From Actibacterium pelagium (GTDB lineage Bacteria; Pseudomonadota; Alphaproteobacteria; Rhodobacterales; Rhodobacteraceae), in NCBI RefSeq assembly GCF_002285415.1, contig NZ_NSBU01000007.1, forward strand, positions 560,501-624,500: a stretch of DNA of 64,000 nucleotides. Reading direction: 5' to 3'. The position numbers and the translations under genes were made by a program. Under the pieces are notes generated by a model. That model was not told where the DNA came from. It searched no databases and saw only the letters and a program-made list of their open reading frames with translations. This document shows, in pieces, positions 26,045 to 52,734 of this stretch; the first letter of the stretch is position 1; the number at the start of each line of letters is the position of its first letter.

Positions 26045-26599
26045 TTAAGACTGAACCGCGTCCATGAAGCGATCACGAATGGTGATCGGGTTCGTTTTGA
26101 TCACGGGCACCTGTACGTTGCCGCTGTCGCATTTTGATACGATGACGGTCATTTTCTTCGATGCCAAAGCGGCCTTCAGTGCCTCTGGCGTTTCTTCGTC
26201 AGAGACCTCAACAACGTTCTCGCAACCGCAAGCGCTGGCCACAGCCGCCAAAGAGGTTTTGCCGCCTGCATAGGTCGGTTGATCCCCAGTTGATCCGTAA
26301 GAGCCATTGTCCACGATCAGCAGGATGTAGTTGTCTTGCGGGTTGTTCCCGATCGTTGAGAGCGTCGCCAGATTTGTCAGGACCGATCCATCTCCGTCGA
26401 TGGAAATCACCGGTTTGTTCTGCGCTAGGGCCAGTCCGAACCCGATTGAGCTGGCCAGTCCCATTGTTCCGAGCATGTAGAAATTGGTGGGCTGGTCGTC
26501 CAGCGCATGCAGTTCCTGGCTTGGCGCACCAATGTTGCAGACGACAAGCTGGTCAGAGATCACCGGGATCAGTGTTTTCAGAAGGTCGTGACGTATCAT
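26045..26599 (-). CDS. comE: Sulfopyruvate decarboxylase, beta subunit
   Basis: ComE is the TPP-binding subunit of sulfopyruvate decarboxylase, converting sulfopyruvate to sulfoacetaldehyde and CO2. The 184-residue product carries the TPP motif starting GDGSVLTN (about 69-76) and ending in the NGSYGSTG region. The split of a TPP enzyme into an alpha subunit (next gene upstream, ATGA overlap) and this beta subunit is the ComDE layout. Phosphonopyruvate decarboxylase is a close relative and would be the main alternative, but the nearby xsc, pta and soeABC genes favour the sulfonate reaction. Last gene of the operon from 34846. Confidence 0.88.
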   Translation of the reverse strand: MIRHDLLKTLIPVISDQLVVCNIGAPSQELHALDDQPTNFYMLGTMGLASSIGFGLALAQNKPVISIDGDGSVLTNLATLSTIGNNPQDNYILLIVDNGSYGSTGDQPTYAGGKTSLAAVASACGCENVVEVSDEETPEALKAALASKKMTVIVSKCDSGNVQVPVIKTNPITIRDRFMDAVQS

Positions 26600-27102
26600 G
26601 TTGCGGTCCTCCAGAATGTGGCGTCAGTCAGGATGGCGACAGGTTTGCTACACATCTGCGCGTGGTTCAGGATCCCAGGCAGTTCCTCGACATCTTCGGG
26701 TCGGTGGAAGTGATAGGTCGGGATGTGAAGCTGGTTCAGGATCGCCTTGGTGTGCAGGGCCATCTCGACCTGACAGGCGACGGGTTCTCCGACTTCACCA
26801 CGGTAGCTGATCAGCATGGGTAGGGGGATCTGGTAGAACTGGATCAGTGTCGCCAGCGTGTTCACCACAACACCAAGCGCCGTGTTCTGCATGAAGATCG
26901 CCGGGCGTCCACCGCCAAGATAGGCACCCGCGCACAGGCCCATGCCTTCGTCTTCCTTGTTGGACGGTACATGTTTAATTGCTGGGGTCTGATCAAGAAC
27001 CTCGATCACGCCCGCAAGCTGTTTGCACGGAACCGAGGTGACAAAATCCACCCCGTTATCGACGAAATCGCCGATGATCCGTCTGTCGATGTCTTTGGCC
27101 AT
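26596..27102 (-). CDS. comD: Sulfopyruvate decarboxylase, alpha subunit
   Basis: This 168-residue protein is the PYR-domain half of a TPP-dependent decarboxylase. The cofactor-activating glutamate lies in HVPSNKEDEG (about 45-53), followed by the GLCAGAYLGG loop and the substrate-side SYRGEVGEP. Together with ComE it forms one active site across the subunit interface. It starts 8 bp after the 2-hydroxyacid dehydrogenase gene, which would supply sulfopyruvate. The free alpha/beta subunit form is typical for sulfopyruvate decarboxylases of methanogens and roseobacters. Confidence 0.88.
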   Translation of the reverse strand: MAKDIDRRIIGDFVDNGVDFVTSVPCKQLAGVIEVLDQTPAIKHVPSNKEDEGMGLCAGAYLGGGRPAIFMQNTALGVVVNTLATLIQFYQIPLPMLISYRGEVGEPVACQVEMALHTKAILNQLHIPTYHFHRPEDVEELPGILNHAQMCSKPVAILTDATFWRTAT

Positions 27103-27110
27103 GAATCCTC

Positions 27111-28028
27111 CTATGAAAGCCGGTCCAGCACGTGATCCGCGATCATCGCGCTGACCCTGATGTTGCTGTCTTGTGTGACGCCAGCGATGTGTGGTGTCAG
27201 AATGAGATTTTGCAGGCCATCAAAGATCTGGGCAGCCTCTTGAGTAAGGGGTTCGGTTTCGAATACGTCCAATGCCGCGCCTGCGATTTGACCCTCTGCC
27301 AACGCGGTGGCGAGGGCCGCGTCGTTCACGACGCCTCCGCGCGCGGCATTGATCACAACGGCGTCGGAGCGCATTTGGGCAAGGCGCTCGGCGTTGATGA
27401 TATGGCGGGTGTCCGGGGTTAGCGGGACGTGCAGGCTGATCACGTCTGCGGTCTTCAGGACGTTCTCGAGGGGCAGGGAGGTGGCGCCGTCCCATACAGG
27501 GCTGTCGGCTGGAAGCATTGGATCGTAGGCAATGACCTCCATACCAAGCGCACGCGCCAACCGGGCGGTTTCCTGCGCGATGGCACCAAAGCCAATGAAC
27601 CCTATGACGCGCCCGAACACTTCGCGTCCTGAACAGTCTGTTCTGGGCCATTCCCCGGCCATCATCCGATCCCCGGCCTGATAAGCGTTGCGCAGCAGTA
27701 TCAGCGCGTTGGTGATGACATATTCGGCGACTGACAAGGTGTTTGCACCCGTCGCAGGGATGACCTCAATCCCCCGTGCGCGACAGGCGTCGAGGTCAAT
27801 GTTGTCCAACCCGACGCCAAGCCGCCCGACAACCTTCAGATCTGGCGCGGCGTTCAGCAAGTCTTCGGTGACCTTGGTCCGGTTTCGCACGATCAACGCC
27901 TGTATTCCGGTCATCATCGTTGGAATATCAGACTGTCTGTCAGCAAGGTCCGGATCATAGGTGGTCGGGTACGTGGCTTTCAGTTTTTCAACCGAGGCCC
28001 CATCCATGAATTCTGTGATCAGGATCAT
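27111..28028 (-). CDS. D-isomer-type 2-hydroxyacid dehydrogenase, probable (S)-sulfolactate dehydrogenase
   Basis: A 305-residue NAD-dependent dehydrogenase of the SerA/2-hydroxyacid family. It has the nucleotide loop GFGAIA (146-151) and the catalytic triad Arg230 (NAARGG), Glu257 (DVFETEP) and His280 (LTPHIAG). Sulfolactate dehydrogenase SlcC of Chromohalobacter belongs to this family and is (S)-specific, the enantiomer that SQ breakdown yields. Position between the aldehyde dehydrogenase and ComDE genes fits oxidation of sulfolactate to sulfopyruvate. A 3-phosphoglycerate dehydrogenase is less likely: the protein lacks an ACT domain and the context is catabolic. Overlaps the upstream gene by 4 bp. 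Confidence 0.78.
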   Translation of the reverse strand: MILITEFMDGASVEKLKATYPTTYDPDLADRQSDIPTMMTGIQALIVRNRTKVTEDLLNAAPDLKVVGRLGVGLDNIDLDACRARGIEVIPATGANTLSVAEYVITNALILLRNAYQAGDRMMAGEWPRTDCSGREVFGRVIGFIGFGAIAQETARLARALGMEVIAYDPMLPADSPVWDGATSLPLENVLKTADVISLHVPLTPDTRHIINAERLAQMRSDAVVINAARGGVVNDAALATALAEGQIAGAALDVFETEPLTQEAAQIFDGLQNLILTPHIAGVTQDSNIRVSAMIADHVLDRLS

Positions 28029-29479
28029 ATGCCAAGCCCCGCCACGCAGGTGTATTTGGTCTCTAAATAGTCATCCAGGCCTTGGCTGCCGCCTTCCTTG
28101 CCCATGCCGCTTTCCTTCAGGCCACCGAAGGGGGCTTCGACAGTGGTAATCAAGCCAGAGTTGATGCCGATAAGGCCATATTCCAAGCCCTCGTTCAGGC
28201 GGAAAGCGCGGCCCAGATCTTGGGTGTAGGCATAGGCGGCCAGACCGAATTCCGTGGCATTGGCGGCGGCAATGGCTTCTTCTTCAGTGTCAAACTTGAA
28301 CACGGCAGATAGCGGGCCGAAAATCTCATCCGTTGCAAACTGCATGTCGGCAGAGGCGTTCTGAATCACGGTCGGCTCAAAGAATGTTCCGCCATTGGCG
28401 TGGCGGCGCCCTCCTTGAACGACCTCACCGCCTTTAGAGACCGCGTCCGCGATCATCTCTTCTACCTTGGCCACGGCTGCTTGGTCGATCATCGGGCCTT
28501 GCTGGACACCATCTTCCACACCGTTGCCGACCAGCAAACCGGCGGTGGCTTCTTTCAAGCGCGCGACAAAGGCATCGTGAATTCCGGCCTGAACGTAAAA
28601 CCGGTTCGTGCAAACGCAGGTCTGTCCCATGTTGCGGTACTTTGCGATCATCGCGCCATCAATCGCCGCATCCAGATCGGCATCGTCGAAGACAATAAAT
28701 GGGGCATTCCCGCCCAGTTCCATCGAGACTTTCTTGACCGTATCTGCCGATTGCCGGATCAGGGTTTTACCCACCTCGGTCGAGCCGGTGAAGGTCACCT
28801 TCCGCACGATCGGGCTGTCCATGATGGCCCCACCGATCTGGCGGGATGATCCGGTGACGATATTCAAGACACCCGCAGGAAAGCCCACATCTTCTGCCAG
28901 TTTGCCCCAGACTAGACCAGAGTAAGGTGTCGCGGTCGCGGGTTTCGCGACAACGGTGCAACCTGCGGCCAGAGCAGGGCCCAGCTTTCGGGCCAGCATT
29001 GAAGATGGGAAGTTCCAAGGCGTAATCGCGCCGACAACTCCGACGGGATGGCGCGTCACAAGAAGTTTGCGGTCAGCGGTCGGAGATGGGACGATTTCCC
29101 CCTTCGCACGGCGGATTTCTTCCGCAAACCAGCGGATATAGGCCGCGCCGATGGCGATTTCTCCGCGCGCTTCAAAGATGGGTTTGCCTTGTTCAGCTGT
29201 CAGTAACTGGGCCAGCGTTTCCTGATTGTCCATCAGGGCATCGTGGAGCTTGTGCAGTAATCCCACGCGGAACAGCAGATCGCTGTGTGACCAAGAGATA
29301 AAAGCCTCTTGCGCGGCAGTGATGGCACGTTCGGTCTCGGCGGAACCACAGTTGGGGATAGTGCCGATCACGTCGCTTGTCGCGGGGTTGGTGACGTCAA
29401 TTGTGCCGCCGCTGTCGGCCCCGGTCCATTCGCCTCCGATCAGGTTCGACTGCATCAGTAGGTTGTCGAAATCAGTCAT
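28025..29479 (-). CDS. Aldehyde dehydrogenase, probable sulfolactaldehyde dehydrogenase
   Basis: A 484-residue NAD(P)-dependent aldehyde dehydrogenase of the succinate-semialdehyde type. The catalytic residues are Glu254 (MELGGNAP) and Cys288 (GQTC), with TPWNFP and FTGSTEVGK in the cofactor site. In sulfo-Entner-Doudoroff and sulfo-transaldolase pathways a GabD-like enzyme oxidises 3-sulfolactaldehyde to sulfolactate; this gene occupies exactly that step between the aldolase and the sulfolactate dehydrogenase. Succinate semialdehyde as substrate cannot be excluded from sequence alone. Start and stop overlap both neighbours (ATGA). Confidence 0.8.
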   Translation of the reverse strand: MTDFDNLLMQSNLIGGEWTGADSGGTIDVTNPATSDVIGTIPNCGSAETERAITAAQEAFISWSHSDLLFRVGLLHKLHDALMDNQETLAQLLTAEQGKPIFEARGEIAIGAAYIRWFAEEIRRAKGEIVPSPTADRKLLVTRHPVGVVGAITPWNFPSSMLARKLGPALAAGCTVVAKPATATPYSGLVWGKLAEDVGFPAGVLNIVTGSSRQIGGAIMDSPIVRKVTFTGSTEVGKTLIRQSADTVKKVSMELGGNAPFIVFDDADLDAAIDGAMIAKYRNMGQTCVCTNRFYVQAGIHDAFVARLKEATAGLLVGNGVEDGVQQGPMIDQAAVAKVEEMIADAVSKGGEVVQGGRRHANGGTFFEPTVIQNASADMQFATDEIFGPLSAVFKFDTEEEAIAAANATEFGLAAYAYTQDLGRAFRLNEGLEYGLIGINSGLITTVEAPFGGLKESGMGKEGGSQGLDDYLETKYTCVAGLGI

Positions 29480-30474
29480 GTTGTCGTCCTCGAGAATACG
29501 TATTGGGTATGCTGTTCATAGGTTTCGCCCGGTCGAAGAACGGCTAAGGGAAAACCATCATGGTGGTTGGCATCCGGCCAGACCTGAGGCTCCATCGCGA
29601 TACCGGCGCAGGCGCTCATGGGCTGGCCATGCAGGCCGATCAGGGGGATGTTGATCTTGGCACCGTCATAGATCTGAAGCCCCGGTTCCGTGGTTCGACA
29701 CTCCATCGTGACACCAGAGGCAAGGCTTTGCAGGGTCGCGACTGTACGCAGCTCTGTTCGGGAGTTCGACAGGCAGAAATTGTGGTCGATGGGGAAGGCC
29801 TGCACGATTGGTGCAGGCGTCGTGAAATCAAATGGCGTTCCTTCAACCGGACGTATTTCGCCCGTCGGTATTAGCTCTGCGTCGACAGGCAGATAGTGAT
29901 CTGCCGCGACGGTCAGCAAGTGCTCTGACGCCGACGCTTCACTATCCAGTGTGAAATAGCTGTGATGGGCAAAGTTGCACAACGTGGGCGCATCGGTCGT
30001 CGCGATGATCCGAATATCCAGAACACCGTCAGTCTCTAGTGCAAAGGTGACTTCCACCGTCAGGTCGCCGGGAAACCCCATGTGTCCGTCAGGCAGATCA
30101 AGCCTTAGTGTGGCGTGCGAGGCAGAATGGTCTTGAAACTTCCAAACCTGTTTGCCCGTCCCCTTGGATCCGCCATGCAGGTGGTGCTTACCCAGAAAAT
30201 TCCGATCCAGTTGGTATGTCGTGCCATCCAGTTCCAGATGCCCATCGCGAATGCGGTTTGCATAGCGTCCGGCGGTAGCGCCGAAATGGGGGGAGTGGAT
30301 CAGGTATGGGGCGAATTCTGGAAAGCCCAGAACCAACGGTGCATCGTGCCCATCCAAACGAAGGTCTTGCAAGACCGCTCCGTAGGTAATGACCGAAGCC
30401 GTGAGGCCGCCGCCCTGAAGTGTTACGCGATCAATGGTCTGGCCGTCCGGCATTATGCCAAAGGGTTCGATCAC
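29476..30474 (-). CDS. Aldose 1-epimerase (mutarotase), possible sulfoquinovose mutarotase
   Basis: A 332-residue GalM-family mutarotase. Signatures are GRYANRI (69-75), KHHLHGG (about 96-102) with a substrate-binding His, and FAHHSYFTL with the catalytic His near 170. The GTG at 30474 forms a GTGA overlap with the upstream stop and gives the family-typical beginning EPFGIMPDG, so the longer frame to 30543 is rejected. In the E. coli yih cluster a mutarotase (YihR) interconverts SQ anomers before isomerisation. Here it follows a putative sulfoquinovosidase gene, so the same job is likely. Confidence 0.82.
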   Translation of the reverse strand: MIEPFGIMPDGQTIDRVTLQGGGLTASVITYGAVLQDLRLDGHDAPLVLGFPEFAPYLIHSPHFGATAGRYANRIRDGHLELDGTTYQLDRNFLGKHHLHGGSKGTGKQVWKFQDHSASHATLRLDLPDGHMGFPGDLTVEVTFALETDGVLDIRIIATTDAPTLCNFAHHSYFTLDSEASASEHLLTVAADHYLPVDAELIPTGEIRPVEGTPFDFTTPAPIVQAFPIDHNFCLSNSRTELRTVATLQSLASGVTMECRTTEPGLQIYDGAKINIPLIGLHGQPMSACAGIAMEPQVWPDANHHDGFPLAVLRPGETYEQHTQYVFSRTTT

Positions 30475-31559
30475 AACTTTAGCTCGATCGATTGACCGGT
30501 GCGTGCGCTTTCTTCGGCGGCCTCGCCGACAATTACTGACCAAAGACCGTCCAGAAGAGATACCTCGGGCTTACCTTGGCCGCTGACCACAAGATCACGG
30601 AACCTTTTATGCTGATAAAAGGTCGAACCGTGGTGGTCACCTGCGGCAAGGACAGTCTCGTCAACTTCGACTTCTTCGACAGTAACCGTCTTGGAAGCAC
30701 GCTCTGAAATCTCAATCTCGGCAGCGCGTTCCTTACCATCCACACTGAAGCGGGCAGGGCCGGGGACCTTGGCGTCGATGCGAGCCTTCTCACCGGTGAC
30801 AGACACAACTTCCTGCCAATAAGAGCCTTCGGCAAACATGCACAGGTCCAACATCCCTCGCGCACCGCTTTCGAAATCAACGACCACATAGGCGTTGTCC
30901 AGTATGTCGGGCGTCTTGCCGTCATAACTCTCGTCCAGATGGTTCACATCGACACCGGCAGAGGCATAGACCCGAACCGGGTCGCTTTGCAGGGTAAGAC
31001 GCATGAGGTCCCAGAAGTGGCAGCATTTCTCGACGAGTGTTCCACCAGTTCGGGCGTTCATCCGGTTCCAGTCCCCTACCTTTTCAAGGAAGGGGAAACG
31101 GTGTTCGCGGATTGACATCATGCGCGGCGTGCCCACGGTGCCGTCGGCCAATTCCTTCAATAGACGCTGGACCGGCGGCATGTATCGATACTCCATCGCC
31201 ACCCAAACCGGAGCCTGTCGGCTTTCGGATCGAGCCATAATATCGCGGCAATGCTGGGACGTCGTGCAAAGAGGTTTTTCGACAAGGATGGGCAGGTTGG
31301 TGTCCAGTACATCCAGCAAAATTTCATGGTGCATATCATTCGGGGCTGCAATCAGCAGCGCGTCACAAAGGCCGGACGACAACATGTCTTTGTAGTCTGA
31401 AAAAGCCTTGGCGCGACCACCCGCGGTTTTGACCGAAAGATCTCGCATTCCATCGTTTGGATCAGAGATCGCCGCAACCTCGCAGTCGCCAAGAAGGGAA
31501 ATATTTCGGATGTGTTCTTGGCCCATCATACCAGAGCCAATGATGCCGTATCTTACCAT
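30471..31559 (-). CDS. Gfo/Idh/MocA-family protein, candidate NAD-dependent sulfoquinovosidase
   Basis: A 362-residue NAD-binding protein with the Rossmann motif GIIGSGMMG (5-13), the EKP motif (94-96) and a substrate domain with conserved Lys/His (TLVEKCCHFWDL, about 174-185). Family members are usually sugar dehydrogenases, but some (GH109 and, to my recollection, the GH188 sulfoquinovosidase SqgA) use transient NAD oxidation to cleave glycosides. No GH31 sulfoquinovosidase is encoded in this operon, so this protein is the obvious candidate to release SQ from its glycosides. A simple sugar dehydrogenase remains the alternative. Starts 1 bp after the isomerase gene. Confidence 0.7.
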   Translation of the reverse strand: MVRYGIIGSGMMGQEHIRNISLLGDCEVAAISDPNDGMRDLSVKTAGGRAKAFSDYKDMLSSGLCDALLIAAPNDMHHEILLDVLDTNLPILVEKPLCTTSQHCRDIMARSESRQAPVWVAMEYRYMPPVQRLLKELADGTVGTPRMMSIREHRFPFLEKVGDWNRMNARTGGTLVEKCCHFWDLMRLTLQSDPVRVYASAGVDVNHLDESYDGKTPDILDNAYVVVDFESGARGMLDLCMFAEGSYWQEVVSVTGEKARIDAKVPGPARFSVDGKERAAEIEISERASKTVTVEEVEVDETVLAAGDHHGSTFYQHKRFRDLVVSGQGKPEVSLLDGLWSVIVGEAAEESARTGQSIELKL

Positions 31560-31560
31560 T

Positions 31561-32937
31561 TCAAAGCTCCAGCACTGGCAGACCCATGGCTGCCGCGACT
31601 TCTTTTAACAGAGGCCTGTGCTCTCCATAGGCAAGCGCCATATGGTGTTCGAGGCCGCTATCCATCACGCGCGTCAGCACTTGGTCGGCAGAGGTGTCAA
31701 AACGGACAACACCCGAGGTTCCGGTAAAGGACTTTGGTCGGTCCAGCATATCCCCGCCTGCCAGGATCATTTTTGGCTTCCCATGAGCTTGACTGATCCG
31801 CATGAAAGTGACCCGCCCGGGTTTCAACGGAAACTCGTAGAGCAGTGGCATTTTGCGATTGGTATGGATCGTTGCGAGCGGCTTTTCGCCCTCAGCCAGC
31901 ATCGACAGGGGGGCTTGGCCGCAATGCCAGACAACACTGGTGTCGTCGCTTGTGTCTATGTCGACGAGGTCGGTCAGAAACACGGCTTCCCCGCTTGCCT
32001 CTTGCAGAACAAGTTGGGTGAGCGCGCCATAGACGTCTGCCTCGCAGGCGCAGGGAACCCGGGCTTCACCCATCAAGGAAACAGGGCCGCAGACAGCGCC
32101 GCCGTACTCGGTAAAGGTTTCCGGCCAGCATCGGATGGCGAAGGCGTCGAAACGACCATCTTTGCGAATGCCGTCCAATGCGATTTTCAGGCGAAGGGAG
32201 CGGTCCAACTCTGTCTGGTCGACATCTTCCAGCCCTTCAGCATCCACGGTCCGGCGCAGTTCTTCGACGTCATCCGCATCCGCGATTTTGCCCGCGTCAA
32301 AAAGGGTGTCGAGGTTTAACTCCTCCACCTCGACACCCGCCAGGGCTTTCAGGTTTGCCTTGTCATAAGCACAGGTATCAAACCCGACCGGATGCTCGCC
32401 CAAGCGCGCGATCCGTTTCCCGGCTGTCTTCCTAACGACCTCTTCTGCCGCCTCAGAGGTGGTTGCAGCGATCGTTCCCTCCAACTGTCCAACCACGCGC
32501 TTGCCAGACAGCAGGTCTGCCAGTTCTCCCGCAATGTCGTCTGCTGGATCGGCGTAAAGCCACGAAAACTTCCGTCCGCTCAGCCCCAAAGCGTGGCTGG
32601 CAAGGTTTAGCCCACAGAAAGAGTTGAGCCTCAGCCGCCCTCCGATCCGAGGTTCCGGAATGGCCCATATGGCCATTGGCAGATCAAAGGCATTCGCGGC
32701 AGCAACGGTCAGCGAGGCATCCGTGAACGTTACCTGTAGTAGCAGCAAGAAGTCGATTTCTTGCCTCTTCAGGTCGGCGATTGCGGCTTCGGTGGCTTCT
32801 GCATCGAACAAAAGGGTTCGAGGCCCCAAAACCTTTGCGCCAGCCGCCTCCAGCGCTGTCAGCATTGCCGAAAGGTTTTTTTCGGCGAATGGGACGTCAA
32901 ATGTCGGACGCCCAAGTGGCAGGATGCCTAGCTTCAT
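31561..32937 (-). CDS. L-fucose/arabinose-isomerase-like protein, probable sulfoquinovose isomerase
   Basis: A 458-residue protein of the L-fucose/L-arabinose isomerase superfamily: alternating Rossmann-like N-terminal region (MKLGILPLGRPTFDVPF), a central part with RCWPETFTEYGG and CACEADVYG (metal- and substrate-site acids), and a beta-rich C-terminal domain with GGDMLDRPKSFTGTSG. E. coli uses the unrelated YihS for SQ isomerisation, but the transaldolase-type SQ pathways of Firmicutes use an isomerase of this superfamily (SqvD/SftI, from memory). Its place between the aldolase and the mutarotase genes suits SQ to sulfofructose. The substrate is inferred. Overlaps the aldolase gene by 4 bp. 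Confidence 0.72.
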   Translation of the reverse strand: MKLGILPLGRPTFDVPFAEKNLSAMLTALEAAGAKVLGPRTLLFDAEATEAAIADLKRQEIDFLLLLQVTFTDASLTVAAANAFDLPMAIWAIPEPRIGGRLRLNSFCGLNLASHALGLSGRKFSWLYADPADDIAGELADLLSGKRVVGQLEGTIAATTSEAAEEVVRKTAGKRIARLGEHPVGFDTCAYDKANLKALAGVEVEELNLDTLFDAGKIADADDVEELRRTVDAEGLEDVDQTELDRSLRLKIALDGIRKDGRFDAFAIRCWPETFTEYGGAVCGPVSLMGEARVPCACEADVYGALTQLVLQEASGEAVFLTDLVDIDTSDDTSVVWHCGQAPLSMLAEGEKPLATIHTNRKMPLLYEFPLKPGRVTFMRISQAHGKPKMILAGGDMLDRPKSFTGTSGVVRFDTSADQVLTRVMDSGLEHHMALAYGEHRPLLKEVAAAMGLPVLEL

Positions 32938-33965
32938 GCGTTAAATCCTGCGTATTCGTGTCTGAATGTTTCGTCAGCCGGGGTAAAGCGTGCGCCGCTT
33001 CCTCCAAAGCATGGATGTTCGAACCAAGGCGCAGCCTTGTCGTCAGCAAGGGCAGAGATTTCGTTCATGTAATCCGATGCACCGGTGCGCAGATCACGTT
33101 CAATCTTGTCCCAATCAGGGTAATGATTGAACGCATCCAGCCAGATCGCGCGTCCAGCCAAAAAGCCAGAGGCGCCTGCAGTAAAGGCGTGTTCAAGAAC
33201 CTTCTTGAACTCTGCTTTGCCAGCACCGGCTGACAGCATCACCCAAGGGCGTCCTGCAAGGCGGCCCATTTCGTCAAAGGTTCCCTGAACGCTGGCCGAC
33301 CCATCCGCGTCTGCGGCGTTTACGGGACTTTCCAGTTTGAATACGTCGATGCCGTAGTCCGGTTTGGAGAATTCTTCGACCGAGCCCAGCACATCGTCGG
33401 CCTTCTTGCCCTGCATCTCGACATAGTCCTTGGTCTGATGCGCGTCCTTGGCAAGCGGATAGACCAGCAGTTCGAACAGGAAGGGGATGTCGTAGTGCAC
33501 ACACTCCTCGCCGATGCGTTTGACATAGTCTTGCTGCGCCTGACACACGGCCGGGTCCGCGTCCGGGCGATACCACGCCAATACTTTCACCGCGTCGCCG
33601 CCCATCCGCTTGATCTTCGCCACAGACCAATCGTCTATATCCGAGGAAAGGCGGCCCCCGTCGGTTTCGGTGAACAGAGAGTCTTCCAGCGTTACAATCA
33701 AACCCTTTGTGGGCGAGTAGGTGTCGATCGCATGTGGAATCGCGTAAGCCGGGTCAAGAAGCATTGCTGACGACTGTTCCTGCAACGTCTCAACCAACAT
33801 TCGTTTGAACCGGGCAACCTGATCCCATGGGGCAGTGTCGACACCAAGATGTTTTGCGATCGGGTTCTTGATCGGTGGCCGCTGGTCAACTGCGGTCATC
33901 TTGAATTTCCCTTTGGCATCCGCCATCCGGCGCAAGCCCCACAGTTTTCCAGGCGACAGTTGCAT
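32934..33965 (-). CDS. LacD/DeoC-type class I aldolase, probable sulfofructose-1-phosphate aldolase
   Basis: A 343-residue TIM-barrel aldolase related to tagatose-1,6-bisphosphate aldolase LacD and to YihT. The N-terminal motif TAVDQRPP and Lys127 (GGDAVKVLAWYRPD) bind phosphate and substrate, and the Schiff-base lysine is Lys210 in DVFKLESPVN, matching LacD. It would split 6-deoxy-6-sulfofructose 1-phosphate into dihydroxyacetone phosphate and 3-sulfolactaldehyde. The ATG at 33965 overlaps the kinase stop (TGATG); a longer frame to 34040 is antisense-like. LacD-type activity on tagatose bisphosphate is the alternative, but no tagatose genes are present. Confidence 0.8.
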   Translation of the reverse strand: MQLSPGKLWGLRRMADAKGKFKMTAVDQRPPIKNPIAKHLGVDTAPWDQVARFKRMLVETLQEQSSAMLLDPAYAIPHAIDTYSPTKGLIVTLEDSLFTETDGGRLSSDIDDWSVAKIKRMGGDAVKVLAWYRPDADPAVCQAQQDYVKRIGEECVHYDIPFLFELLVYPLAKDAHQTKDYVEMQGKKADDVLGSVEEFSKPDYGIDVFKLESPVNAADADGSASVQGTFDEMGRLAGRPWVMLSAGAGKAEFKKVLEHAFTAGASGFLAGRAIWLDAFNHYPDWDKIERDLRTGASDYMNEISALADDKAAPWFEHPCFGGSGARFTPADETFRHEYAGFNA

Positions 33966-46072: not shown

Positions 46073-46087
46073 TCAGGCCGGTTCCAT

Positions 46088-46939
46088 TTATCCCATAGCG
46101 ATCGCCACAGCCGTTGCATCGACGATGTCATCCACCGTGGCGCCGCGGCTAAGGTCGCAGACCGGGCGGGCGAAACCCTGCAGGAATGGGCCGATTGCCT
46201 TGGCGCCGGCCAATTCTTGCGCCAATTTGTACCCGATGTTGCCCGCGTCCAGCGATGGGAAGATTAACACGTTGGCGTCGCCGTCGCCCATGCCTTTGGC
46301 TGCCGCGATGCGCGGGTTCAGTGCTGCATCGGCTTGGATTGGGCCAAGAAAGCCGGTTTCGTTCACCGCCGCGCGCACCCGGTCCACACTGTCGCCGGCG
46401 CCGCTGGTGCCGGTTGAGAAGGACAGCATCGCCACCCGTGCAGAGCCCAGTAAGGCTTTGGCCGAGGCCTCTGACGCCCGCGCGATTGCTGCCAAAGCCT
46501 CTGCGTCCGGGTCCACGTTCACCGCGCAATCTGCAAAGACCATTTCGCGCCCGTCAGGGAACACCATCAGAAAGAACGACGAGGGAAGGGCGACCCCATC
46601 AGCAAGACCGATCCCGATCGACGCCGCTTCGATCACGCGCCGGGTTGGGCTATCTGCGCCCGCAACCATCGCGTCGGCCTCGCCTGCAGCCACCATCGCG
46701 GCCGCGCGATACAGGGGTTTCGTCAACATGCGTCGTGCGACAGGCTCTTTCAGGCCTCGTGCGGCAATCAAAGCGGCAACCTGGGCCTCTGACACGTCGG
46801 CCAGACCGACAGGCTGGCATAGGCCTTCGTCACGCATCCGATCAGTTGCCTCGGCAACGCGCGCATCCTCAAGTTCCGGAAACACAACCCGTGCCTGTTT
46901 GGCGCGGGCTTGTTCATATGCACTGTTCAAAACCGACAT
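46088..46939 (-). CDS. pta: Phosphate acetyltransferase (short form)
   Basis: Pta converts acetyl phosphate, the Xsc product, and CoA to acetyl-CoA. The 283-residue product has PTA/PTB signatures VVFPELEDARV (about 17-27), GADSPTRRVIEA, VFADCAVNVDPDAE and MLSFSTGTSGAGD. It is shorter than the usual 320 residues because the N-terminal start is close to the first conserved block. It lies on the opposite strand from xsc-ackA, ending 15 bp from ackA and starting 33 bp from the divergent citrate synthase gene. The ATG at 46939 (MSVLNSAYEQARAK) is chosen over a long upstream frame that reads antisense to citrate synthase. Confidence 0.88.
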   Translation of the reverse strand: MSVLNSAYEQARAKQARVVFPELEDARVAEATDRMRDEGLCQPVGLADVSEAQVAALIAARGLKEPVARRMLTKPLYRAAAMVAAGEADAMVAGADSPTRRVIEAASIGIGLADGVALPSSFFLMVFPDGREMVFADCAVNVDPDAEALAAIARASEASAKALLGSARVAMLSFSTGTSGAGDSVDRVRAAVNETGFLGPIQADAALNPRIAAAKGMGDGDANVLIFPSLDAGNIGYKLAQELAGAKAIGPFLQGFARPVCDLSRGATVDDIVDATAVAIAMG

Positions 46940-46972
46940 GTTGAATTCCCTTCTACCTGCAAGGAGACACCC

Positions 46973-48106
46973 ATGACCGAGACCGTCAAGATCAACCGTG
47001 GCCTGAAGGGTGTTTATTTCGAGCGATCCGGTGTCTCTGATATCAACGGCGCGAAGGGAGAGCTTATCTATCGCGGCTACTCGATCCACGATCTGGCGAC
47101 CCACGCGACCTTTGAAGAGGTTTGCTATCTTCTGATCCACGGAGAGCTGCCAACCGCCAACCAACTGGCCGAATTCGACGCCAAGCTGCGGGGATATCGC
47201 TGTGTGCCCGATCAGGTGTTGTCAGTGATTGAAGCCTGCAAGGACGGTCATCCGATGGACGTTCTGCGCACCGCCGTGTCTGCTATGGCGGCTTTGGATG
47301 CAGGCAGCCTGCAGGTCGGGGAAGAGGCCTTTGTCGAAAACGGTTTGAAACTGACCGCTCAGGTGCCCACGCTTATCGCGGCGCACGAAGCGCTGCGCAA
47401 TGGCCGTGATCCGGTCGCACCTGATGCCAGCCTAAGCCACGCTGCCAACTGGCTGTGGATGCTGAAGGGTGAAAAGCCATCCGAAGATGCTGCGCGCCTT
47501 GCCGACGTGGATTTCATATTGCACGCCGAACATGGGGCCAATGCCTCTAGCTTCGCGGCGCGGGTCACGGTGGGCACCGAGGCCAATCTGCACGGGGCAA
47601 TCGTGACGGCGCTGTCGACCCTGGCCGGTCCTGCCCATGGCGGCGCGGCAGAGGACGTCATGAAGATGGTCCACGAGATCGGCAAACCCGAAAACGCGGC
47701 CGAATACGTGAAAGCCAAACGCAAGAACCGCGAGGCTGTCACCGGTTTTGGCCACCGCGTTTATCGCGCCGAAGACCCGCGCGCGCGTCACATGCGTGAA
47801 GGTGTCCGCAAACTGGGTCAGGAGATGGGCGCGCCCGAGTGGTATGAGATCTTGCAGGCTGTTGTAGAGGCGATGAAGCCGTATTCGCGTCACGGGCTGA
47901 ACGTGAACGTCGATTTCTATTCGGGCGTTATCTATCAGTTGCACGGCATCCCGATGGACCTGTACGTCCCGATCTTTGCCATTGGCCGGATGCCCGGATG
48001 GGTCATCCAATGCATCGAGCAGCAGCGCGGAAATATCCTGATCCGGCCCCTGACGCTCTACAATGGTCCCGAAAAACGCGACTGGGTTGCGATTTCTGAC
48101 AGATAA
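46973..48106 (+). CDS. Citrate synthase (short, dimer type)
   Basis: A 377-residue type I citrate/2-methylcitrate synthase. Catalytic histidines are in ILHAEHGANASSF and GPAHGGAAED, the catalytic Asp in VDFYSGVIYQ, and the substrate-binding GFGHRVYRAEDPRA is intact. AAGGAG precedes the ATG at 46973. The compact form differs from the long gltA of the TCA cycle. In this setting it would condense the acetyl-CoA from Xsc/Pta with oxaloacetate. A 2-methylcitrate role is possible, but no prp genes are present. Confidence 0.88.
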   Translation: MTETVKINRGLKGVYFERSGVSDINGAKGELIYRGYSIHDLATHATFEEVCYLLIHGELPTANQLAEFDAKLRGYRCVPDQVLSVIEACKDGHPMDVLRTAVSAMAALDAGSLQVGEEAFVENGLKLTAQVPTLIAAHEALRNGRDPVAPDASLSHAANWLWMLKGEKPSEDAARLADVDFILHAEHGANASSFAARVTVGTEANLHGAIVTALSTLAGPAHGGAAEDVMKMVHEIGKPENAAEYVKAKRKNREAVTGFGHRVYRAEDPRARHMREGVRKLGQEMGAPEWYEILQAVVEAMKPYSRHGLNVNVDFYSGVIYQLHGIPMDLYVPIFAIGRMPGWVIQCIEQQRGNILIRPLTLYNGPEKRDWVAISDR

Positions 48107-48120
48107 ACGGGCACAAATCG

Positions 48121-48134
48121 TGTAAGCGCTTACA
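48121..48134. promoter_or_regulatory. Perfect LacI-type operator palindrome upstream of soeA
   Basis: TGTAAGCGCTTACA is a perfect 14-bp palindrome with the central CG step and outer TG/CA typical of LacI-family operators (TGnAAnCGnTTnCA). It is 15 bp after the citrate synthase stop and 52 bp before soeA. No LacI-family gene is in the window, so the regulator is elsewhere. Confidence 0.55.
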
Positions 48135-48185
48135 TAGCGGGTCGAACTAAGGTAAAGCGGATAGAGCGAGGAAGGATTTCAGTAC

Positions 48186-51044
48186 ATGGCGCAAACAAAA
48201 CCAATCGTCGAAACGTCCCCGAAAGTTTCGGACGAGGTCCGCCAGACAACCTGTTACATGTGCGCCTGTCGCTGCGGCATCGACGTGCACCTTCGCGATG
48301 GCAAAGTCAGCTATATCGAAGGCAATCGGAACCATCCGGTGAACAAGGGTGTGATCTGCGGCAAGGGTGCCTCGGGCATCATGCAGCATTATTCACCGGC
48401 TCGTTTGCGGGCCCCGATGAAACGGGTGGGACCGCGCGGCTCTGGCCAGTTCGAAGAGATTTCGTGGGACGAAGCACTGGAACTGGCCACTGAATGGCTG
48501 GGTAAGGTGCGCAAGACCGATCCCAAGCGTTTGGCCTTTTTTACAGGGCGCGATCAAAGCCAGTCTTTGACCGGGCTTTGGGCGATGAAATACGGCACGC
48601 CGAATTTCGCCGCGCATGGTGGGTTCTGTTCGGTCAATATGGCTGCAGGTGGGTTGTACACCTTCGGTGGCGCTTTCTGGGAATTTGGTGATCCTGATTG
48701 GGATTACACGAAGTACTTCATGTTGTTTGGTGTTGCCGAAGACCATGCCTCTAACCCGATCAAGAAGGGTATCGGTAAGATCAAGAAGCGTGGGGCCAAG
48801 TTCGTCTCTGTGAACCCGGTACGCACCGGCTATAACGCGGTTGCGGATGAGTGGATCGGAATTCGTCCGGGCACGGATGCGTTGTTCGTTGGGGCGTTGA
48901 TCCACGAACTGTTCCGAATGCAGCAGATCGATCTGGACTATCTGATCCGCTACACGAATTCGCCTTGGCTGGTCATTCAGGACCCGGGGGCAGAAGATCA
49001 TGGCTTGTTCGCACGTAACGACGATGGCGACCCGTTGGTCTGGTCGAACGAGGCAGGTGGCTTTGGAAGCGGCAAGATCAGCGACCTGTCCGCGTCCCTA
49101 ACCGGAACGCGCACCCTGCCTGATGGGCGGACGGCGCGGACGGTGTTCGAGTTGATGGCAGAACGCTATCTGGGTGACGAATATTCCCCGGAAGCCGTTG
49201 AAGAGCGCACAGGTGTGCCAGCAACTCAAATCCGCAAGATTGCGGCAGAGCTAGCCCATGTTGCCTTCGAGGAAGAAGTCATCATCCAGCGTGAGTGGAC
49301 CGACGCCTGGGGCCGCAAGCACGACAAGCTGATCGGGCGTCCCATCTCGATGCATGCAATGCGCGGGATTTCGGCCCATTCCAACGGGTTCCAGACCTGC
49401 CGGATGATCCACATCCTGCAGATCCTTCTGGGGTCGATCGATTGCCCCGGGGGCTTCCGTTACAAGCCGCCGTATCCCAAGCAAACACCCCCTAATTTGC
49501 TGCCTCACGGTGCTTCTGGCGACATCAAGCCAGAGATGCCTCTTGGCGGTCCTCATCTGGGCTTCCCACATGGGCCGCATCATCTGCTGCTAGACGAAGA
49601 GGGCGGGCCGAACCGGCTGGACAAGGGCTTTAGCTGGGACGCGCCGATGTCGGCGCACGGGCTGATGCACATGGTCATCAACAACGCCGCCGAGAAAGAC
49701 CCTTACGGGATCGACGTGCTGTTCATGTATATGGCCAACATGGCGTGGAACAGTTCGATGAACACGCCGGGCACGATTGATGCGCTGACCAAGACGGATG
49801 AGAACGGCGACTATGTGATCCCCAAGATCATCTATTCGGACGCCTATTACTCTGAAACGGTGCCCTTTGCCGACCTGATCCTGCCCGACACGACCTATCT
49901 AGAACGCTACGATTGTATTTCGCTGCTGGATCGCCCGATTTCCGAGCCCGAGATTCTGGCGGACTCAATCCGCTATCCGGTGGTCGAGCCCGACCGTGAC
50001 GTGCGCGGGTTCCAAACCGTGCTGATCGACCTTGGCGCGCGTCTGGGTCTTCCCGGTTTTGTCGATGATGCGGGTGCGCCGCTTTATCCCGGTGGATATC
50101 CGGACTACATGGTCAACCACGAGCGTAAGCCGGGTGTCGGTCCCCTAGCCGGGTTCCGAGGGAAGGACGGCACCGAATATGGTGTCGGTGACAAGAACCC
50201 TGACCAGCTGAAGCGCTACATCGAGAACGGGTCGTTCTGGGAGCAGCGCTTTGATCCCGAACACGCGTATTTCCGGCATGCGAACCGTGGCTATCTGGAC
50301 TGGGGGATCAAGAAGGGCATTCGCCTGACGCCCGACGCCACCATTTTCCAGCTCTATTCAGAGCCGGTGCAAAGGTTCCGGCTGGCTGCGGAAGGCCACG
50401 GAGACCGCCAGCCGCCTGATCGGGCGCGCGAGCGCATTCAGAAGTACTTCGACCCGCTGCCGTTCTGGTACGAGCCCATGGAAGGGGCGATGGTCGATAC
50501 GTCCAAGTTCGCGTTGCATGCGATCACGCAGCGTCCCATGCACATGTACCATTCGTGGGGATCGCAGAACGCGTGGCTGCGGCAGATCACGGCGCAGAAC
50601 CGGCTGTATATCCACACCTCGGTAGGAGAGCAGATCGGAGCGAAGGATGACGACTGGGTCTGGCTCAGCTCGCATCAGGGGCGCGTCAAATGTCAGGTCA
50701 AGCTAATGGACGGGGTGAACCCGCACACGGTTTGGACATGGAACGCTATCGGCAAACGTCGTGGGGCTTGGGGGCTTAGCGACGATGCGCCGGAAAGTAA
50801 TCAGGGTTTCCTGCTGAACCACCTGATCTCGGAGCTGTTGCCAGCGGGTGGGGGCGGCTATCGCTATTCGAACTCGGACCCGATCACGGGGCAGGCCGCG
50901 TGGTTCGACCTGCGCGTGTCCATCGAGAAAGCCGATGGCGACGAGAAAACAGAGCCCTTCTTTGAACCCGTCGGAACCGGCATGCAGGAACCGTCGCCAA
51001 CCAAAGTCGCCTTCGGCGCAGAGTTCCGGAGGAAAGCCCAATGA
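48186..51044 (+). CDS. soeA: Sulfite dehydrogenase SoeA, molybdopterin subunit
   Basis: A 952-residue molybdopterin oxidoreductase of the polysulfide/thiosulfate reductase branch. Four cysteines (23, 26, 30, 58) bind an N-terminal iron-sulfur cluster, and Cys148 (GGFCSVN) is the probable molybdenum ligand. There is no twin-arginine signal, so the enzyme is cytoplasmic, the known trait of SoeABC, which oxidises sulfite to sulfate and passes electrons to the quinone pool. With soeB, soeC and upstream xsc this would detoxify sulfite from sulfonate cleavage. A formate dehydrogenase role is excluded by the missing Sec/Cys pattern and context. Confidence 0.88.
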   Translation: MAQTKPIVETSPKVSDEVRQTTCYMCACRCGIDVHLRDGKVSYIEGNRNHPVNKGVICGKGASGIMQHYSPARLRAPMKRVGPRGSGQFEEISWDEALELATEWLGKVRKTDPKRLAFFTGRDQSQSLTGLWAMKYGTPNFAAHGGFCSVNMAAGGLYTFGGAFWEFGDPDWDYTKYFMLFGVAEDHASNPIKKGIGKIKKRGAKFVSVNPVRTGYNAVADEWIGIRPGTDALFVGALIHELFRMQQIDLDYLIRYTNSPWLVIQDPGAEDHGLFARNDDGDPLVWSNEAGGFGSGKISDLSASLTGTRTLPDGRTARTVFELMAERYLGDEYSPEAVEERTGVPATQIRKIAAELAHVAFEEEVIIQREWTDAWGRKHDKLIGRPISMHAMRGISAHSNGFQTCRMIHILQILLGSIDCPGGFRYKPPYPKQTPPNLLPHGASGDIKPEMPLGGPHLGFPHGPHHLLLDEEGGPNRLDKGFSWDAPMSAHGLMHMVINNAAEKDPYGIDVLFMYMANMAWNSSMNTPGTIDALTKTDENGDYVIPKIIYSDAYYSETVPFADLILPDTTYLERYDCISLLDRPISEPEILADSIRYPVVEPDRDVRGFQTVLIDLGARLGLPGFVDDAGAPLYPGGYPDYMVNHERKPGVGPLAGFRGKDGTEYGVGDKNPDQLKRYIENGSFWEQRFDPEHAYFRHANRGYLDWGIKKGIRLTPDATIFQLYSEPVQRFRLAAEGHGDRQPPDRARERIQKYFDPLPFWYEPMEGAMVDTSKFALHAITQRPMHMYHSWGSQNAWLRQITAQNRLYIHTSVGEQIGAKDDDWVWLSSHQGRVKCQVKLMDGVNPHTVWTWNAIGKRRGAWGLSDDAPESNQGFLLNHLISELLPAGGGGYRYSNSDPITGQAAWFDLRVSIEKADGDEKTEPFFEPVGTGMQEPSPTKVAFGAEFRRKAQ

Positions 51045-51781
51045 CCTGCCTTCCTGAAAAGACAGACAAGAAGCTTGGCCTTGTCATTGATCTGGACATT
51101 TGCGTCGGCTGCCACGCCTGTGCGACCAGCTGTAAAGAGTGGAACACCAGCGGCTACAGTGCGCCCTTGTCGGATCATGATCCCTATGGCGCGGACCCTT
51201 CTGGCGCTTGGTTGAACCGTATTCATTCGTTCGAGGCCACAACGGCCGAGGGCGTTTCTAAAACGGTTCATTTCCCAAGATCCTGCCTCCACTGCGAAGA
51301 GCCTGATTGCGTAACCGTTTGCCCAACCGGCGCGTCCTATAAGCGCGAGGAAGACGGTATCGTTCTGGTCAATCCGGACACCTGTATCGGCTGCAAGCTT
51401 TGCTCTTGGGCCTGTCCTTATGGGGCTCGGGAATACGACTATGACGATGGGGTAATGAAGAAATGCACCCTATGCGTCGACCGGATCTACAACGAGAACA
51501 TCCCCGAAGAAGACCGCGTCCCGGCCTGTGTCCGCGCTTGCCCAACCGGTGCCCGCGCCTTCGGGGACCTTGGTGATCCGGACAGCGACGTTTCCAAGTC
51601 CGTGGCCGAGCGCGACGGATTCAACCTGCTTGACGAATTCGGCTACAAGCCGGTGAACAAATATCTGCCCCCACGCATCAACAGTGTTCAGGCTGCCCCC
51701 GTAGCCGAGGAACCCGCCGCCCCGGATGGGTCGCGGTTGGAAAAACTGTTTGCTTGGGCTGACAAAGCCCTGTCGCGGTAA
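51041..51781 (+). CDS. soeB: Sulfite dehydrogenase SoeB, 4Fe-4S subunit
   Basis: A 246-residue ferredoxin-like electron-transfer subunit with four cysteine clusters: CVGCHACATSC (about 23-33), CLHCEEPDCVTVC, CIGCKLCSWAC and CTLC ... CVRAC. They carry electrons from SoeA to the membrane subunit. The ATG overlaps the soeA stop (ATGA), and soeC starts 11 bp after it. A short Ala/Pro-rich tail (about 215-246) is not conserved in other members. Confidence 0.92.
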   Translation: MTCLPEKTDKKLGLVIDLDICVGCHACATSCKEWNTSGYSAPLSDHDPYGADPSGAWLNRIHSFEATTAEGVSKTVHFPRSCLHCEEPDCVTVCPTGASYKREEDGIVLVNPDTCIGCKLCSWACPYGAREYDYDDGVMKKCTLCVDRIYNENIPEEDRVPACVRACPTGARAFGDLGDPDSDVSKSVAERDGFNLLDEFGYKPVNKYLPPRINSVQAAPVAEEPAAPDGSRLEKLFAWADKALSR

Positions 51782-51792
51782 GAGGTCCCAAG

Positions 51793-52734
51793 ATGCATCC
51801 AGCCTATTCCGTTATCGTTTTCACAACCTCATCTGGCGCGGGTTACGGCCTGTTGTTCTGGCTGTCTCTTGCCCATCTGGCAGGGCGTTTGCCGGGCGGC
51901 GCGATGGCTTTCGTCGCTATCGCACTAGCGCTGGCGCTGATCACTGTCGGTCTGTTGTCCTCGACCATGCACCTAGGTCATCCCGAACGCGCCATCGGGG
52001 CGTTTTCGCAATGGCGGTCTTCTTGGCTGTCGCGCGAGGGCGTGGCCGCGGTTGCGACCTATGCACCGGCAGGCCTGCTGGCGCTGATCTGGTTGATCGG
52101 GGCTGACACAGGTGTGACCAAACTGTTGGCGTTGCTTTCGGCAATAGGGGCGGTTGCAACGGTCTATTGCACAGGCATGATTTATGGCTCTTTGCGTACC
52201 ATCCGGCAGTGGAACAAGGGGCTGACACCTGTCGTCTACCTAGCGCTTTCCGGGGCAACGGGGGCGCTTCTACTGGCTGTATTGATGTCGTTGTTTGGCG
52301 CTTCGGCCCAATGGATCGGGGTGATCACTCTGGTCTCGCTGGTGATCGCGGGTGTCGCCAAGCTTGCCTATTGGCGCCAGATTGATGCCGACCCGGGTCA
52401 GTACACGACCGCAATGGCAACCGGCCTTGGCGGGCAGGGTGGCTCTGTCCGTCCGCTGGATCCGCCCCACACCAAGCCGAATTTCGTGATGCGTGAAATG
52501 GGCTATCAGGTGGCGCGCAAGCATGCCTCTCGTCTGCGCCGTCTGTCGGCCATCGCGCTGTTCGCGGTTCCGATTGTTGCGGTTCTTATCGCGGTCTTCG
52601 CCCCGGGTGGCGCGGCGGTTCTCTATCTGATTGCGGCCCTTGCCGCCGGGTGGGGCGTCGCAACGGAACGCTGGTTGTTCTTCGCCGAAGCCGAGCACGT
52701 CAGCCAGTTGTACTACGGCGCGACGCGGGCTTGA
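51793..52734 (+). CDS. soeC: Sulfite dehydrogenase SoeC, membrane anchor (DmsC-like)
   Basis: A 313-residue integral membrane protein with about eight hydrophobic spans of the DmsC type. The conserved stretch SSTMHLGHPERAIGAFSQWRSSW (about 57-78) marks the family. It anchors SoeAB to the cytoplasmic side of the inner membrane and transfers electrons to quinone. It completes the soeABC unit; no fourth gene follows before the XRE regulator. Confidence 0.9.
   Translation: MHPAYSVIVFTTSSGAGYGLLFWLSLAHLAGRLPGGAMAFVAIALALALITVGLLSSTMHLGHPERAIGAFSQWRSSWLSREGVAAVATYAPAGLLALIWLIGADTGVTKLLALLSAIGAVATVYCTGMIYGSLRTIRQWNKGLTPVVYLALSGATGALLLAVLMSLFGASAQWIGVITLVSLVIAGVAKLAYWRQIDADPGQYTTAMATGLGGQGGSVRPLDPPHTKPNFVMREMGYQVARKHASRLRRLSAIALFAVPIVAVLIAVFAPGGAAVLYLIAALAAGWGVATERWLFFAEAEHVSQLYYGATRA

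Follow-up and report, generated by a model that had tools for sequence, protein, structure and literature searches.

The window analyzed here, 64,000 nucleotides of the Actibacterium pelagium genome (contig C7, 560501–624500; 3.49 Mb in 7 contigs), very probably encodes a one-cell tandem route from the plant sulfosugar sulfoquinovose (SQ) to sulfate. Two gene blocks at 26045–52734, coordinates that a preliminary description of this DNA had given correctly, provide a candidate gene for each step from an SQ glycoside to dihydroxyacetone phosphate (DHAP), acetyl phosphate and sulfate. In the proposed route, a TRAP transporter would import SQ or SQ glycosides, a GH188 sulfoquinovosidase would release SQ from the glycoside, and a hybrid sulfoglycolytic Embden-Meyerhof-Parnas (sulfo-EMP) set of mutarotase, isomerase, kinase and class I aldolase would convert it to DHAP and (S)-sulfolactaldehyde. 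An aldehyde dehydrogenase would then produce (S)-sulfolactate, SlcC would convert this to sulfopyruvate and ComDE would decarboxylate it to sulfoacetaldehyde. Xsc is predicted to cut the C-S bond, giving acetyl phosphate and sulfite; Pta and AckA would take the acetyl group, and SoeABC would oxidize sulfite to sulfate. We infer the catalytic activities and their order of use from genes, families, key residues, operon structure and recurrence, all of which are observed.

A nine-gene operon of the proposed sulfosugar route

The sulfosugar operon comprises nine tightly packed genes at 26045–34846 on the minus strand, in the 5′ to 3′ order kinase, aldolase, isomerase, SqgA, mutarotase, aldehyde dehydrogenase, SlcC-type dehydrogenase, ComD and ComE. 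Matches in NCBIfam, Pfam and the PDB confirmed the gene content that the preliminary description had listed (kinase, aldolase, isomerase, mutarotase, glycosidase, aldehyde dehydrogenase, SlcC-type dehydrogenase and ComDE). Of its eight junctions, six are −4, 1, −4, −4, 8 and −4 bases long; with the listed starts, the remaining two are −76 (kinase/aldolase) and −73 (SqgA/mutarotase). The true starts of the aldolase (33965) and the mutarotase probably lie further inside than listed, and using the internal ATG of the aldolase at 33965 shrinks the overlap with the kinase to one base. The slcC, comD and comE genes overlap or abut the upper-pathway genes (junctions −4, 8 and −4). The tight junctions, and the reappearance of these genes in this order in other genomes, make the operon more than a chance arrangement.

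Relatives of the operon are taken here as the best 80 of 224 isomerase relatives from a contig scan, some of their loci being cut by contig ends. Directly upstream of the operon lies a DeoR/GlpR-family regulator (35029–35787, minus strand; PF00455, 158 bits), found in 42 of the 80 relatives' loci, which is the probable operon repressor. The TRAP transporter (36000–39141, plus strand), a YdjC/NagB-like pair on the minus strand and a divergent Sel1/MauG-like pair separate the operon from the second block.

Candidate enzymes of the upper pathway

The candidate sulfofructose kinase (33965–34846, minus strand) belongs to the PfkB family and is YihV-like; its best PDB match is the sulfofructose kinase 7ag6 (180 bits), with 2rbc second (152 bits), which places it with the kinase type of classic sulfo-EMP. 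Residues K27, N108 and R135 are conserved in 69/69, 66/71 and 72/72 aligned relatives, respectively. They align with K27, N109 and R138 of YihV, presumably its sulfonate-binding site.

The aldolase (32934–34040, minus strand; start likely 33965) matches PF01791 (91.9 bits), and is thus of class I within the DeoC/LacD superfamily, as in sulfo-EMP, and not of the class II SqiA type of sulfo-EMP2. The preliminary description had named the YihT family; LacD (140 bits) is closer than YihT (74 bits), and the highest score, 312 bits, is to the unannotated structure 8tnf. A lysine conserved in 68 of 69 relatives presumably forms the Schiff base, and the enzyme is proposed, from its sequence, to cut sulfofructose-1-phosphate.

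The sole NCBIfam match of the isomerase (31561–32937, minus strand) is the sulfoquinovose isomerase SftI (NF048012, 273.8 bits), and the SftI family is the only match at E ≤ 1e-10 for 38 aligned isomerase members. The sequence matched nothing in the PDB at E ≤ 1, so the fold is a predicted one. The AlphaFold model (mean pLDDT 91.8) resembles L-arabinose isomerase in Foldseek (E 9.6e-24), with TM scores of 0.49–0.59 on the query for L-arabinose and L-fucose isomerases, suggesting an arabinose/fucose isomerase fold. It does not fall in the YihS family (PF07221, according to PMC12421959), its sole Pfam match being Fucose_iso_C.

The glycosidase of the preliminary description is a Gfo/Idh/MocA protein (30471–31559, minus strand) that matches GH188 sulfoquinovosidases (approximately 403 bits to 8qc2/8qc3) and is named SqgA here. 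The SQ-contacting residues of ArSqgA, including the sulfonate contacts Arg166/Leu170/Lys172, are listed in PMC10755693. Mapped by motif spacing, positions equal to K107, Y136, R166, L170, K172, E189, H193 and H321 are present; Glu163 was not counted, as it fell one place off an invariant Glu. These SQ-contact residues are kept in 66 of 66 aligned relatives, and SqgA would be expected to hydrolyze SQ glycosides in an NAD+-dependent manner. The mutarotase is an aldose-1-epimerase (29476–30543, minus strand, start probably internal; PF01263, 263 bits) present in 38 of 80 relatives' loci, with galactose-1-epimerase as its top NCBIfam match, under the cut-off.

Proposed steps from sulfolactaldehyde to sulfate

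The aldehyde dehydrogenase (28025–29479, minus strand) is a proposed sulfolactaldehyde dehydrogenase of the GabD/SlaB type, scoring 635.6 bits with TIGR01780 (cut-off 646.35), and occurs in 35 of 80 relatives' loci. It is followed by a phosphoglycerate dehydrogenase (PGDH)-like D-2-hydroxyacid dehydrogenase (27111–28028, minus strand; PF02826, 190 bits; 53/80 loci), which matched no SlcC-specific model and is placed at the level of the D-2-hydroxyacid dehydrogenase family; it is the proposed SlcC, and may oxidize (S)-sulfolactate. The two sulfopyruvate decarboxylase subunits, ComD (26596–27102; TIGR03845, 155.3 bits) and ComE (26045–26599; TIGR03846, 231.4 bits), both on the minus strand, pass the curated cut-offs of 147.95 and 221.5. 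Together with the proposed SlcC and with Xsc, which is also over its curated cut-off, they make up the gene set of sulfolactate biomineralization through Xsc.

The second block (43145–52734) begins with xsc, encoding sulfoacetaldehyde acetyltransferase (43145–44923, plus strand; TIGR03457, 949.3 bits against a cut-off of 676.4), and ackA, encoding acetate kinase (44924–46072, plus strand; TIGR00016, 338 bits, over the cut-off). A type II citrate synthase gene (46910–48106, start probably 46973; TIGR01800, 420.6 bits, cut-off 421.3) and a soeABC-like trio follow on the same strand. The trio consists of a SoeA-like molybdopterin subunit (48186–51044; PF00384, PF04879 and PF01568), a SoeB-like iron-sulfur subunit (51041–51781; DsrO/DmsB-type matches under cut-offs) and a SoeC-like membrane anchor of the DmsC family (51793–52734; PF04976, 64.1 bits). 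No dedicated Soe model matched the trio; the joint encoding of molybdopterin, Fe-S and NrfD/DmsC-type anchor subunits identifies it by domain type, and the enzyme may oxidize sulfite. For the aldehyde dehydrogenase, SlcC and SoeABC, the assignment goes to family level only.

The pta gene, encoding a short phosphate acetyltransferase (about 46088–46939), lies between ackA and the citrate synthase gene on the minus strand, where its translation matches PF01515 in two pieces (230.6 and 24.6 bits); two further Pta matches occur elsewhere in the genome. A plus-strand open reading frame at 46065–46976 was rejected as pta, having no NCBIfam or Pfam match at E ≤ 0.001. The preliminary description's list for this block (xsc, ackA, pta, citrate synthase and soeABC) therefore stands as a list of candidates, but with pta on the opposite strand and SoeABC recognized by domain type alone.

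Both blocks recur close together elsewhere. In Tropicimonas sediminicola (locus L075), soeABC lies immediately 3′ of comE, with a counterpart 79% identical to the SoeA-like gene directly after comE, and three genomes of another genus (g38) carry xsc and soeABC within ~20 kb of the sulfoglycolytic cluster. Of the evidence for a link between the two blocks of the window, this recurrence is the strongest, though it is no more than suggestive; the xsc/soe block may be co-regulated with the operon. Beside soeC, one g38 genome has a histidinol-dehydrogenase-family gene.

Recurrence of the operon in relatives

The 80 relatives are mostly from Rhodobacteraceae-type and Rhizobiaceae-group alphaproteobacteria, with two metagenome-assembled genomes (MAGs) labelled Gammaproteobacteria; among named records, the nearest isomerases are those of a Marivivens MAG (74%) and Primorskyibacter aestuariivivens (73%). 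The usual order is DeoR, DctQ, DctM, DctP, Sel1 (minus strand), MauG, kinase, aldolase, isomerase, SqgA, mutarotase, aldehyde dehydrogenase, SlcC, ComD and ComE. Loci are often incomplete (kinase in 72/80, aldolase in 69/80, SqgA in 67/80); ComDE is linked in 19, and a complete linked set of the nine pathway genes, on a single strand, is present in 13. The named isolates that carry this complete set are Shimia haliotis, Aliiruegeria lutimaris, Tropicimonas sediminicola and Shimia abyssi, and they open the proposed route to direct testing. As gene content, C-S cleavage and sulfite oxidation in the same cell, as claimed in the preliminary description, are supported by SlcC and ComDE within the operon, by the linkage of ComDE in relatives and by xsc/soeABC near the clusters of g38 and T. 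sediminicola.

Downstream of the upper pathway the loci differ. Among 65 with at least 6.5 kb of downstream sequence, ComDE is linked in 15, a SuyB-like gene in eight and a TauD-like dioxygenase gene in five, the latter two labels resting on one representative each (L058 and L074). The SuyB label comes from the GD_AH Pfam domains of the L058 protein, whose sole NCBIfam offer is galactarate dehydratase (124.7 bits, cut-off 730.85), and from its position beside SlcC; the TauD-like label comes from PF02668 (113.8 bits) in the L074 protein. Domain scans in relatives' loci and on contig C6 covered selected open reading frames. In locus L111, a ComC-type dehydrogenase (NF040650, 196 bits, cut-off 500) comes after SlcC, beside SuyA/SuyB-like genes. 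Because relatives carry ComDE, SuyB-like or TauD-like genes downstream, the C-S cleaving lower module looks exchangeable among clusters.

SuyAB had also been guessed from open reading frame size in L096, L102 and L043, and was rejected there because Pfam gave other families or nothing. Five Silicimonas/Boseongicola-type loci (L068, L074, L076, L085 and L100) have the isomerase, kinase, aldehyde dehydrogenase, SlcC and TauD-like dioxygenase (86–88% alike) without aldolase or SqgA; such clusters could represent a third way of breaking the C-S bond of a C3 sulfonate. A mutarotase-aldehyde dehydrogenase-ComD-ComE module without kinase, aldolase or isomerase was found in L162 (G041:C3:483000–500000), whose genome also matches SmoC, and looks like a remnant or donor module.

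A proposed import cassette shared with sulfo-SMO-type clusters

The proposed SQ/SQ-glycoside importer is a TRAP transporter on the plus strand (DctQ, 36000–36575; DctM, 36565–38058; DctP, 38092–39141), whose DctP is mostly 64–78% identical in relatives' clusters, with one at 50%. Near it are a Sel1-repeat protein with a signal-like N terminus (41057–41557, minus strand; PF08238, 54.9 bits) and a divergent MauG-like diheme protein (41484–42878, plus strand, start probably 41520; PF03150, 120.5 bits; TIGR03981, 253.6 bits against a cut-off of 340), the latter with two CxxCH motifs and a signal-like N terminus in an alignment of 49. The Sel1 protein occurs in 51 of 80 relatives' loci at 64–79% identity (alignment of 50), above the 37–62% of the kinase, and the MauG-like gene in 50; if only loci whose upstream sequence extends 6 kb or more are considered, the counts are 47/64 and 46/64. 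A putative gene at 41024–41458 on the plus strand ("hyp144") was rejected as an antisense shadow of the Sel1 gene.

Association with other genes was assessed by a survey of 292 genomes of the order, with Fisher tests that ignore shared ancestry. The isomerase matched in 28 genomes (E ≤ 1e-10): 19, including the window genome, at 57–100% identity and essentially full length, and nine at 23–31% that were counted as negatives in the tests. Xsc was counted over its cut-off only, as matches at E ≤ 0.001 are uninformative (all 14 control genomes match), and was present in all 19 isomerase genomes versus 178 of the 273 others (p = 6e-4). Among the 80 relatives, 20 carry ComD at the isomerase locus (ComDE linked in 19 of those 20), and all of their genomes but one, a MAG, have Xsc over the cut-off (19 of 20).

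MauG-like proteins (E ≤ 1e-60) occur in 182 of the 292 genomes. At 20 MauG loci outside isomerase clusters, the complete TRAP-Sel1-MauG cassette is found at 14, with DctP 67–75% identical, Sel1-MauG without TRAP at two and neither at four (44–48% MauG matches). These loci include a flavin reductase (13), an aldo/keto reductase (12), an alkanesulfonate-monooxygenase-like gene (10) and SqgA (4), which points to clusters of the SQ monooxygenase (sulfo-SMO) type; this identity was taken from the L126 representatives only, an alkanesulfonate monooxygenase (243.6 bits) and a FerA-type flavin reductase, both under cut-offs, and an aldo/keto reductase. The notion that Sel1/MauG is specific to sulfo-EMP clusters was thus rejected, the cassette being present in sulfo-SMO-type clusters as well. 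A SmoC ortholog is present in 140 of the 292 genomes, but in one of the 19 isomerase genomes versus 139 of the 273 others (p = 6e-5); in that one, G052, the isomerase stretch contains only the kinase and isomerase of the set. The window genome has no match to the SmoC-type SQ monooxygenase at E ≤ 1e-120 and does not belong to the sulfo-SMO type.

Two upper pathways that share one importer and nearly exclude each other are as expected if the substrate is common. Although it is an argument from association, the shared TRAP cassette with the near-exclusion of SmoC and isomerase is the strongest genomic argument for SQ as the substrate. SQ, the substrate suggested in the preliminary description, is further supported by the GH188 contact residues and by the kinase residues that presumably bind the sulfonate.

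The Sel1/MauG pair could have a role in maturing or protecting a partner in the periplasm, or the substrate itself could be its target; among the matches listed in the open-licence literature, judged by titles and abstract openings, no report of a role in SQ use was found. More tentatively, and with slightly less than even confidence, we suggest that the hybrid sulfo-EMP/SlcC-ComDE-Xsc-Soe route is a separate and widespread alphaproteobacterial means of one-cell SQ mineralization that takes the place of sulfo-SMO in part of the Rhodobacterales and in Hyphomicrobiales. Both routes would need the shared cassette, with a periplasmic Sel1/MauG-like diheme pair whose role may be to oxidize either a partner in the periplasm or, ahead of import, the substrate.

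Alternative explanations

Several observations weigh against a continuous route from SQ to sulfate, and some concern the upper pathway. The 273.8 bits of the isomerase are far under the SftI cut-off of 700, and 11 of 80 relatives yielded no aldolase match and 13 no SqgA. The aldolase is nearer to tagatose-bisphosphate aldolase, its closest relative among named families, than to YihT, which would suit an operon for sulfofucose (6-sulfo-galactose) or another sulfohexose, with breakdown via sulfotagatose, the kinase and the LacD-like aldolase into the same lower pathway. The galactose-1-epimerase match of the mutarotase, albeit under the cut-off, fits this too, and an EMP-like route for sulfofucose was considered before the Entner-Doudoroff route was shown (PMC12421959). 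We consider sulfofucose or another such sulfohexose quite improbable as the substrate: the window protein and every aligned relative retain the GH188 contacts to SQ, including one at the C4-OH; SQ isomerase is the only family that the isomerase matches; and the TRAP cassette is common to sulfo-SMO-type clusters. LacD enzymes tolerate C4 epimers, and therefore the aldolase does not discriminate between SQ and sulfofucose.

Other observations concern the connection between sulfolactate and C-S cleavage. On these sequence matches the aldehyde dehydrogenase is indistinguishable from succinate-semialdehyde dehydrogenase, the enzyme of its top PDB matches. The xsc block is separate from the operon and on the other strand, and xsc is common in the order (197/292 genomes, 178 of them without a full-length isomerase match). 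ComE is only weakly associated with the isomerase (12/19 versus 99/273, p = 0.03; 111/292 over the cut-off overall): in five of the 19 isomerase genomes the two genes are no more than ~6 kb apart, and ComDE is away from the isomerase in seven of the 12 that are ComE-positive. Many relatives' clusters have no lower module nearby, with 37 of the 65 loci extending at least 6.5 kb downstream lacking linked ComDE, SuyB or TauD. The three g38 stretches show no SlcC or ComDE, and one of these genomes (G059) is without ComE over the cut-off. Sulfolactate might then be excreted as the end product, with ComDE, Xsc and Soe serving other sulfonates such as taurine, isethionate, cysteate or 2,3-dihydroxypropane-1-sulfonate (DHPS). 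The close packing of slcC, comD and comE with the upper genes and the ComDE linkage in 19 relatives argue otherwise, as does the presence of Xsc in all but one of the genomes with ComD in the locus, and we regard excretion as unlikely.

The genome also contains SuyAB-like genes outside the window. A locus on contig C6 (L158, 5768–10310) carries SuyB-like (79% identical to that of L058) and SuyA-like (69% to that of L111) genes beside histidinol-dehydrogenase-family and SDR genes, so that SuyAB could be the main sulfolactate cleaver after racemization, with ComDE/Xsc as a side route; the SlcC, ComC-type dehydrogenase and SuyAB-like genes of L111 are in line with this. This arrangement appears highly unlikely here. 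The SuyAB-like locus and the operon are on different contigs (C6 and C7), the two ComC-type matches in the genome score 171 and 158 bits against a cut-off of 500, making the racemase partner uncertain, and the SQ operon itself contains ComDE. The "HpsN-like" protein of contig C6 passes the histidinol dehydrogenase model (451.7 versus 243.8), and from its gene context the locus is probably a DHPS (HpsN/SuyAB) route. SQ yields (S)-sulfolactaldehyde (PMC12421959) and SuyAB acts as a sulfolyase on (R)-sulfolactate (PMC11131964); therefore, SlcC-ComDE-Xsc offers SQ carbon the more direct path.

Comparison with known systems

The upper part of the proposed route is most readily compared with sulfo-EMP (E. 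coli yih; Arthrobacter AK01), with which it shares intermediates, a YihV-type kinase and a class I aldolase of the DeoC/LacD superfamily, as well as the GH188 sulfoquinovosidase of Arthrobacter. It differs in the fucose/arabinose-type isomerase, in place of YihS, and the TRAP importer; sulfolactate would also not be the end point because SlcC and ComDE follow in the operon. The isomerase is apparently of the SftI/SqvD kind, which we take to be one family, and in this respect resembles sulfo-EMP2 of Firmicutes (SqvD, SqiK and SqiA). In that pathway, however, the aldolase SqiA is class II (PMC12890257), whereas the aldolase here is class I and the kinase YihV-like.

One-cell sulfosugar breakdown through sulfolactate has been demonstrated once, in 2025 (PMC12421959), and predicted once, in 2024 (PMC11465081). 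The demonstrated case, the sulfofucolytic-sulfolactate sulfolyase tandem of Paracoccus wurundjeri, likewise leads from a sulfosugar to sulfite in one cell via sulfolactate but uses sulfofucose, the Entner-Doudoroff pathway and SuyAB rather than a probable SQ substrate, EMP enzymes and ComDE-Xsc. Sulfogalactonate dehydratase and the other Entner-Doudoroff enzymes are absent from the operon families, among which alone they were sought. The predicted case, actinobacterial clusters with the Tyr variant of GH188, has GH188, a fucose-type isomerase, sulfofructose kinase, sulfofructose phosphate aldolase, sulfolactaldehyde dehydrogenase, a PGDH-like dehydrogenase and a C-S cleaving module in common with the operon; it employs SuyAB, Tyr at the GH188 site and an ABC transporter in place of ComDE-Xsc, Leu and TRAP. 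Roseobacter-clade sulfo-SMO clusters share the TRAP, Sel1 and MauG cassette, SqgA in some, and cleavage of the C-S bond in the SQ-importing cell, but there a flavin monooxygenase cuts the bond first. A Klebsiella that converts ~10% of SQ to sulfate by unresolved means is cited in PMC12421959.

The idea that one-cell routes of this kind had no precedent needs tempering in view of these two cases. By titles and abstract openings, no report of the ComDE/Xsc form, with a sulfo-EMP operon continued by SlcC-ComDE, was found among the matches listed in the open-licence literature. What appears new, and is well supported as gene content, is the ComDE/Xsc version of a one-cell sulfosugar-to-sulfate route whose general kind is already known. 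SQ production is put at ~10 billion tons a year (PMC10755693), sulfoglycolytic pathways are said to yield secreted short organosulfonates that are mineralized through cross-feeding (PMC13372026, 2026), and both halves in one bacterium have been called unusual (PMC12421959). If the proposed route is correct, part of the alphaproteobacteria perform sulfoglycolysis and C-S mineralization at once, and models that give every sulfo-EMP gene set sulfolactate or DHPS release would be wrong for these bacteria.

Neighboring genes

A YdjC-type carbohydrate deacetylase and a NagB-like deaminase are encoded at 39196–40889 on the minus strand and also adjoin the TRAP genes in loci L038 and L039. The pair could point to an amino-sugar substrate, but as a part of the pathway it was rejected, being present in just two of 80 relatives' loci. 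Beyond the second block, at 53273–59865 on the plus strand, DAO/GCV_T demethylase-like proteins flank an MttB-family protein (TIGR02369, 357.8 bits, cut-off 525); this cluster is perhaps involved in methylamine or betaine demethylation.

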